DNA from: Rhodococcus sp. (in: high G+C Gram-positive bacteria)
GTDB lineage: Bacteria > Actinomycetota > Actinomycetes > Mycobacteriales > Mycobacteriaceae
Reading direction: 5' to 3'
Assembly: GCA_012514505.1 (NCBI GenBank)
Contig: JAAZAD010000348.1
Span: 1-64,000, forward strand
DNA: 64,000 bases
Positions within the stretch are counted from its first letter, which is position 1. The number at the start of each line of letters is the position of its first letter. Both the position numbers and the translations under genes were made by a program. The notes under the pieces are model-generated. The model saw only the letters and a program-made list of their open reading frames with translations. It was not told where the DNA came from and did no database searches. Below, in pieces: positions 5,214 to 43,347 of this stretch.

Positions 5214-5591
5214 ATGTACTTTTCCGTAGAAGACCCGAACGACGAGGGCGGCCGAAACGGCAGTACGGCCCCCACATCTCCGGCGGAATCGGCATTGCAG
5301 AAGCTCGAGTTCCTGCGCGCCGAACTCGACGAGATCGACTCTGCACTGATGGAGACGGTGCGCGCACGTCTGGAGGTGTGCCTACGAATCGGGCACCTCA
5401 AACAAGAAGCCGACATCCCCGTGGTGCAGCCGGCCAGGATGGGACTGGTTCACGAACGCGCCCGCGATTTCGCTAACGCTCATGGCCTCTCCCCCGATTT
5501 CTTCAATACCCTCTACACAATTCTGATTGCGGAAACATGCCGCTTGGAGGAACAGATCATCAACGCCGACTTTGCGAGCGATCCAGAATGA
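5214..5591 (+). CDS. papB: Chorismate mutase-type protein, probable 4-amino-4-deoxychorismate mutase (PapB-like)
   Basis: Start re-set to ATG 5214 (MYFSVEDPNDEGGRNG...). AroQ-type helix: LRAELDEIDSALMETVRARLEVCLRIGHLKQEADIPVVQPARMGLVHERARDFA. Stop overlaps the start of the papA-like gene. Confidence 0.85.
   Translation: MYFSVEDPNDEGGRNGSTAPTSPAESALQKLEFLRAELDEIDSALMETVRARLEVCLRIGHLKQEADIPVVQPARMGLVHERARDFANAHGLSPDFFNTLYTILIAETCRLEEQIINADFASDPE

Positions 5592-43347: not shown

Follow-up and report, generated by a model that had tools for sequence, protein, structure and literature searches.

The question raised by the stretch of DNA analysed here is what a compact papB-papA-papC-aurF operon produces, and for which synthetase, in a position convergent with the gene of a giant nonribosomal peptide synthetase (NRPS). 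This stretch (hereafter the window) comes from a Rhodococcus-like genome, in which it makes up the first 64 kb of a contig of 73.6 kb. From the enzyme families, their catalytic residues and the recurrent proximity of NRPS genes, we consider it likely that pap-aurF is a dedicated supply route of p-amino- or p-nitrophenylalanine for NRPS lipopeptides, with likely export by a DrrABC-type transporter. The route probably operates throughout the genus and serves several NRPSs.

The pap-aurF operon and its predicted chemistry

The genes papB (5214..5591, ATG at 5214), papA (5588..7654), papC (~7654..8553, start approximate) and aurF (8553..9548) form one tightly coupled, overlapping operon on the + strand: the ATG of papA at 5588 overlaps the papB stop (ATGA), and the ATG of aurF at 8553 lies on the papC stop. 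The operon is convergent with the NRPS gene (9577..43347, − strand). These coordinates and overlapping starts and stops confirm the arrangement given in the initial annotation, which had described four genes in a tight + strand run facing a giant NRPS.

PapA is a fused glutamine amidotransferase/4-amino-4-deoxychorismate synthase (PF00117 + PF00425; GATase 1e-47, Chorismate_bind 2e-86) with the motif SKPIKGTRPRG. The lysine in PIKGT, which is of the aminodeoxychorismate synthase type, is present in 80/82 PapA homologues, whereas TrpE of the same or related genomes reads HPIAGT; PapA thus has Lys in place of the Ala that marks an anthranilate synthase (TrpEG). PapB is assigned as an AroQ-type 4-amino-4-deoxychorismate mutase (CM_2, PF01817, 9e-16), and scored 76.9 bits against NCBIfam TIGR01803 (cut-off 73.35). 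In E. coli chorismate mutase, D48 and E52 contact the ring hydroxyl of the substrate. Aligned with the E. coli sequence, PapB of the window has Gln and Met at these positions, and the pap-linked homologues in the alignment have Gln and a non-Glu, mostly hydrophobic residue. PapC is a putative 4-amino-4-deoxyprephenate dehydrogenase (PF02153/PF20463; PDH domains at 3e-7 and 3e-6) with the motif GINPMF. PapC proteins read GxNPM or GxNPL where TyrA of the five genomes tested reads GGHPM, i.e. Asn replaces the His of HPM that contacts the ring hydroxyl in TyrA. A separate TyrA and chorismate mutase were found in the genomes tested.

A corynecin/chloramphenicol-like cluster in Rhodococcus sp. 14-2470-1b (L202, G068:C15:38001-58000, positions 5134-18222) served as a positive control for these signatures. 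It contains genes for a CmlI-like protein (71% to CmlI), a CmlP-like A-T-reductase, a CmlA-like protein, PapA, PapC, PapB and an MFS-like protein, the CmlP-like and CmlA-like labels being derived from architecture and size rather than from a family search. The same genome also carries a separate, genus-wide pap-aurF set. The PapA, PapB and PapC of the control show the same residue features as the window proteins (its PapC reads GINPLF). The PIKGT lysine, the loss of D48/E52 in PapB and the His to Asn exchange in PapC are therefore all common to the control, and the assignment of papABC to the p-aminophenylalanine (PAPA) pathway, already made in the initial annotation, is well supported by enzyme families and residue signatures.

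The N-oxygenase belongs to PF11583 (4e-44), and its closest solved relative is CmlI (5hyg, 4e-71), followed by AurF (1e-43). All seven diiron ligands are kept (E106, E141, H144, E202, H229, E233 and H236). The predicted CmlI/AurF type is thus upheld, yet the enzyme is 43% identical to CmlI, and 19 genus-wide pap-linked N-oxygenases form a clade of their own (100/100), separate from the one that holds CmlI and its L202 homologue. By family we regard it as an arylamine N-oxygenase, with a nitro group as the probable product. In line with the initial annotation, no PapM-like N-methyltransferase was seen among the genes scanned. An Rfam scan of the window gave no matches.

In the proposed pathway, PapA would convert chorismate to 4-amino-4-deoxychorismate, PapB would convert this to 4-amino-4-deoxyprephenate, and PapC would catalyse the oxidative decarboxylation to 4-aminophenylpyruvate, from which a general transaminase would form PAPA. 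At some stage, the CmlI-type diiron enzyme would oxidise the arylamine, probably to the nitro compound.

Distribution and neighbouring synthetases

The N-oxygenase and papA were each found in 27/28 genomes of the same genus, the single exception for both being a genome of 75% completeness. Both genes also occur in two further genera of the family (G032 and G036). A draw of 397 actinobacterial genomes, in which five candidates per genome were scored, returned only the window's own genome (G000) and G032 at E ≤ 1e-30, and was not used as a frequency. AurF relatives in Streptomyces and Nocardia (L110, L117, L137, L144 and others) were rejected as PAPA clusters. Because no papC was found beside them, and several lie by a fused 4-amino-4-deoxychorismate synthase, they more likely represent aminobenzoate pathways. 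Elsewhere in their sequence, genomes of the R. opacus group carry an additional papA (63-65%; G005:C24:2259-4313, G016:C25:596059-598116 and similar), where the open frames are longer, at about 1,000 codons.

Adjacency to an NRPS was scored within the 20-kb locus for 80 named loci. An NRPS was present in 30 of the 35 loci with papA, papC and aurF, and in 22 of the 23 with papC and aurF but without papA. The papC-linked loci therefore have an NRPS in 52/58 cases, compared with 0/22 for loci without papC, although the common ancestry of the loci means that these counts are not independent. That the pathway feeds NRPSs is best supported by the persistence of this adjacency through relocations. 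In the R. opacus clade and the window, the pap block is convergent with the nine-module NRPS, while R. rhodnii has pap-aurF on the opposite flank of a nine-module NRPS, in divergent orientation. Relatives of R. erythropolis have a multi-protein NRPS at a distance of 6-8 kb from the block, and members of the R. ruber clade have an NRPS upstream of the operon. Within the R. fascians clade, the papBA pair has become separated from papC-aurF, and papA is retained elsewhere in 8/8 genomes tested; in the four genomes whose surroundings were read, papBA stands beside a TE (thioesterase)-ended NRPS with a DALFVGGIM domain, while papC-aurF adjoins a different NRPS. The initial annotation had tied the pap genes to the NRPS of the window. 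The link to NRPSs holds, but not that to this particular NRPS, as the partner differs by clade or is absent.

The initial annotation had also put the pathway forward as a candidate undescribed one. However, the four genes have been published in the horse pathogen R. equi, where they were read as aromatic amino-acid genes: REQ23860 as chorismate mutase, REQ23850 as TrpEG-like, REQ23840 as prephenate dehydrogenase and REQ23830 as hypothetical protein (Letek et al. 2010; PMC2947987). Environmental rhodococci carry them at the corresponding chromosomal position; of all chromosomal genes, REQ23860 and REQ23850 show the strongest co-regulation with the vap virulence island, and their deletion impairs growth of R. 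equi in macrophages (PMC2947987). REQ23810 corresponds to IupU, later named the humimycin A NRPS (PMC5550956), for which the order Tyr-Ser-D-Tyr-Phe-D-Thr-Val-Val has been predicted (PMC12024397).

We read this locus in the type strain DSM 20307 (L132/G069). There, the same four genes adjoin a seven-module NRPS with the codes DALFVGAVV, DVWHFSLVD, DALFAGAVV-E, DALFMGGVM, DFWNVGMVH-E, DGFFAGAIM and DAFFAAGIQ-TE, in agreement with the humimycin A prediction in module order, Ser and Thr codes and positions of the epimerization (E) domains. PapA of this strain has PIKGT and PapC the Asn signature; from gene order, REQ23830 would be the arylamine N-oxygenase. Seven modules, E domains after modules 3 and 5 and a terminal TE, which we take together as humimycin-type, are found in the NRPSs beside pap-aurF of P. 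equi and G036, but not in the NRPS of the window. In Prescottella, the pap block is convergent with such an NRPS. For R. rhodnii there was no match to the humimycin-type TE, and pap-aurF is still paired with its nine-module NRPS. The window's own genome contains a second, humimycin-type NRPS (G000:C223:51641-74751), cut by the contig end, with the codes DALFIGAVV, Ser, DALFAGAVV-E, DALFVGGIM, Thr-E and DGFFAGAIM; a separate contig (G000:C95) encodes a TE that matches its P. equi counterpart at 64%. Since several relatives also carry humimycin-type NRPSs away from the pap locus, the residue could serve more than one synthetase.

The novelty is therefore not the locus, which is genus-wide and published under a reading that differs from PAPA synthesis, but lies elsewhere than first stated. 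Two published results are thereby open to a testable re-reading. By their signatures in the type strain, REQ23860 and REQ23850 would be the first two enzymes of PAPA synthesis. Humimycin A, in turn, was synthesised after the peptide predicted for the NRPS beside these genes, so that native humimycin may contain an aromatic residue with an amino or nitro group, invisible to the prediction. More tentatively, and with somewhat more doubt than confidence, we suggest that most rhodococci make p-nitro- or p-aminophenylalanine lipopeptides, that the humimycin prediction is wrong for at least one of Tyr1, D-Tyr3 and Phe4, and that the R. equi macrophage genes act via the peptide rather than via aromatic amino-acid supply.

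Candidate modules and alternative roles

The domains of the window NRPS (11,256 aa) were located by motif parsing, not by Pfam. The order is C-A-T-E, (C-A-T)x6, C-A-T-E, C-A-T-E (C, condensation; A, adenylation; T, thiolation), with nine A domains. The terminal E domain (9577..10980, − strand; HHLVVDSVSW at residue 10924) is followed by no TE in this parse. R. wratislaviensis, R. opacus and R. rhodnii, among others, have an NRPS of this architecture at the corresponding locus. The nine modules of the initial annotation are thus present, but the nonapeptide that it predicted is unproved, given a synthetase with a final E domain and no TE, and given the variation of modules 3 and 5 among species. 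The first C domain is lipo-starter-like and clusters with the first C domains of humimycin-type NRPSs, reported as C-starters (PMC5550956); the product would carry a lipid tail.

The residue would enter lipopeptides here probably via this NRPS, with modules 2, 4 or 6 as candidates, and elsewhere via the humimycin-type heptamodular NRPS. A2 (35758..37254, − strand) and A4 (29008..30492, − strand) share the code DALFVGGIM, and their specificity regions are 61-65% and 59-63% identical, respectively, to A1/A3/A4 of the P. equi humimycin-type NRPS. The alternative candidate A6 (22288..23769, − strand) has the code DTGVVGAVI, unchanged in six genomes; owing to Gly at position 239 its pocket should be open. 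The codes of modules 3 and 5 vary between species. A truncated A-domain start precedes the intact A domain in both (window 33673-34047 and 26902-27276; NRPS residues 3101-3225 and 5358-5482; about 30-39% to other A domains). As these truncated starts sit in the species-variable modules, they suggest A-domain replacement by insertion.

Several observations weigh against a supply of (amino/nitro)phenylalanine to these NRPSs. We know of no product for the locus, though our reading covered open-licence literature only and a published account may exist. Genomes G002, G007 and R. marinonascens have pap-aurF with no NRPS within about 20 kb. No A domain of the window is near the CmlP-like code (DASMQSAVC in L202), and the attempt to locate a PAPA module by similarity to the CmlP-like A domain failed accordingly. 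The DALF codes lack a polar residue that would suit an arylamine, and DALF-type domains are also frequent in NRPSs not adjoining pap genes; a search for a single A-domain type unique to pap-adjacent NRPSs therefore failed, and adjacency cannot single out a module.

Some of these points would fit a different role, in which pap-aurF yields a small molecule that is released as such (for example nitrophenylalanine, nitrophenylpyruvate or nitrophenylethanol) and exported by DrrABC, the NRPS adjacency reflecting a shared genomic hotspot. In G007 and R. marinonascens pap-aurF is accompanied by an ABC exporter without a nearby NRPS, a CmlP-like A domain is lacking in the window, and the obafluorin producer sheds 4-nitrophenylethanol and 4-nitrophenylacetate (PMC5490192). 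We nevertheless regard this role as unlikely, given that the neighbouring NRPS and the flank differ between clades, that NRPS adjacency outlasted the split in the fascians clade, and that R. rhodnii pairs pap-aurF with a nine-module NRPS. Still less probable is that the residue is used as the amine, or that Phe or Tyr is used here, with the CmlI-type enzyme stopping at the hydroxylamine or nitroso stage or acting on another amine; the separate clade and 43% identity of the N-oxygenase would allow this, as would DALF codes at sites for which the prediction for humimycin A (PMC12024397) gives Tyr or Phe, but the full diiron ligand set, the CmlI match at 4e-71 and the strict co-occurrence of the N-oxygenase with papA argue against it. 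That the operon merely adds aromatic amino-acid genes (chorismate mutase, anthranilate synthase and prephenate dehydrogenase) raising Phe/Tyr/Trp supply, as in the published annotation and in line with the macrophage phenotype of the R. equi deletions (PMC2947987) and the shared protein superfamilies, is very improbable in view of the PIKGT rather than PIAGT motif of PapA, a dehydrogenase without the TyrA His, a mutase without D48/E52, an arylamine N-oxygenase within the same operon, and dedicated TrpE, TyrA and chorismate mutase elsewhere in the genomes.

Under the preferred supply of p-amino- or p-nitrophenylalanine to lipopeptides, the product would likely be exported by the DrrA/DrrB/DrrC-type ABC exporter encoded by three genes at 703..3394 (+ strand; TIGR01188, 372 bits; synteny), which is kept beside the pap block in several clades. 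A predicted secreted class-2 lipase-like hydrolase (4083..5015, − strand; PF01674, 6e-17) is kept near the pap block or the NRPS in several clades (opacus clade 67-74%, fascians clade ~50%), and may be a tailoring or self-protection enzyme. The initial annotation had mentioned neither of these two neighbours nor, in the NRPS, the terminal E domain without a TE and the lipo-starter-like first C domain. Upstream of the NRPS, at 44151-52272, lie acetoacetate and methylcrotonyl-CoA genes, which we take to be housekeeping because they also flank pap-aurF where an NRPS is absent (L029 and L031).

Comparison with known systems

Obafluorin biosynthesis involves ObaC, which belongs, like the window enzyme, to the AurF family; it nitrates a 4-aminophenyl unit and is proposed to act on 4-aminophenylpyruvate (PMC5490192). 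Unlike the window, however, it is a short beta-lactone pathway with a transaldolase, in Pseudomonas. The R. equi locus REQ23860-23830 has the same four genes in the same order, but its adjoining NRPS is heptamodular instead of nine-modular. The humimycin A NRPS shares DALF-type codes with modules 2 and 4 of the window and has a related first C domain, but comprises seven modules with a TE, whereas the window NRPS has nine modules ending in E. In pristinamycin I biosynthesis, papABC feeds a multimodular NRPS and the amine is N-methylated by PapM; the combination of papABC and a multimodular NRPS is the same as in the window, with PapM there and an N-oxygenase here. Chloramphenicol and corynecin biosynthesis has its three PAPA enzymes in common with the window and also uses an N-oxygenase from this family, the chloramphenicol enzyme CmlI belonging to a clade separate from its 43% identical counterpart in the window. 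That pathway relies on the beta-hydroxylase CmlA and the A-T-reductase CmlP, neither of which is encoded in the window, where the pap-aurF operon is instead paired with a multimodular NRPS.
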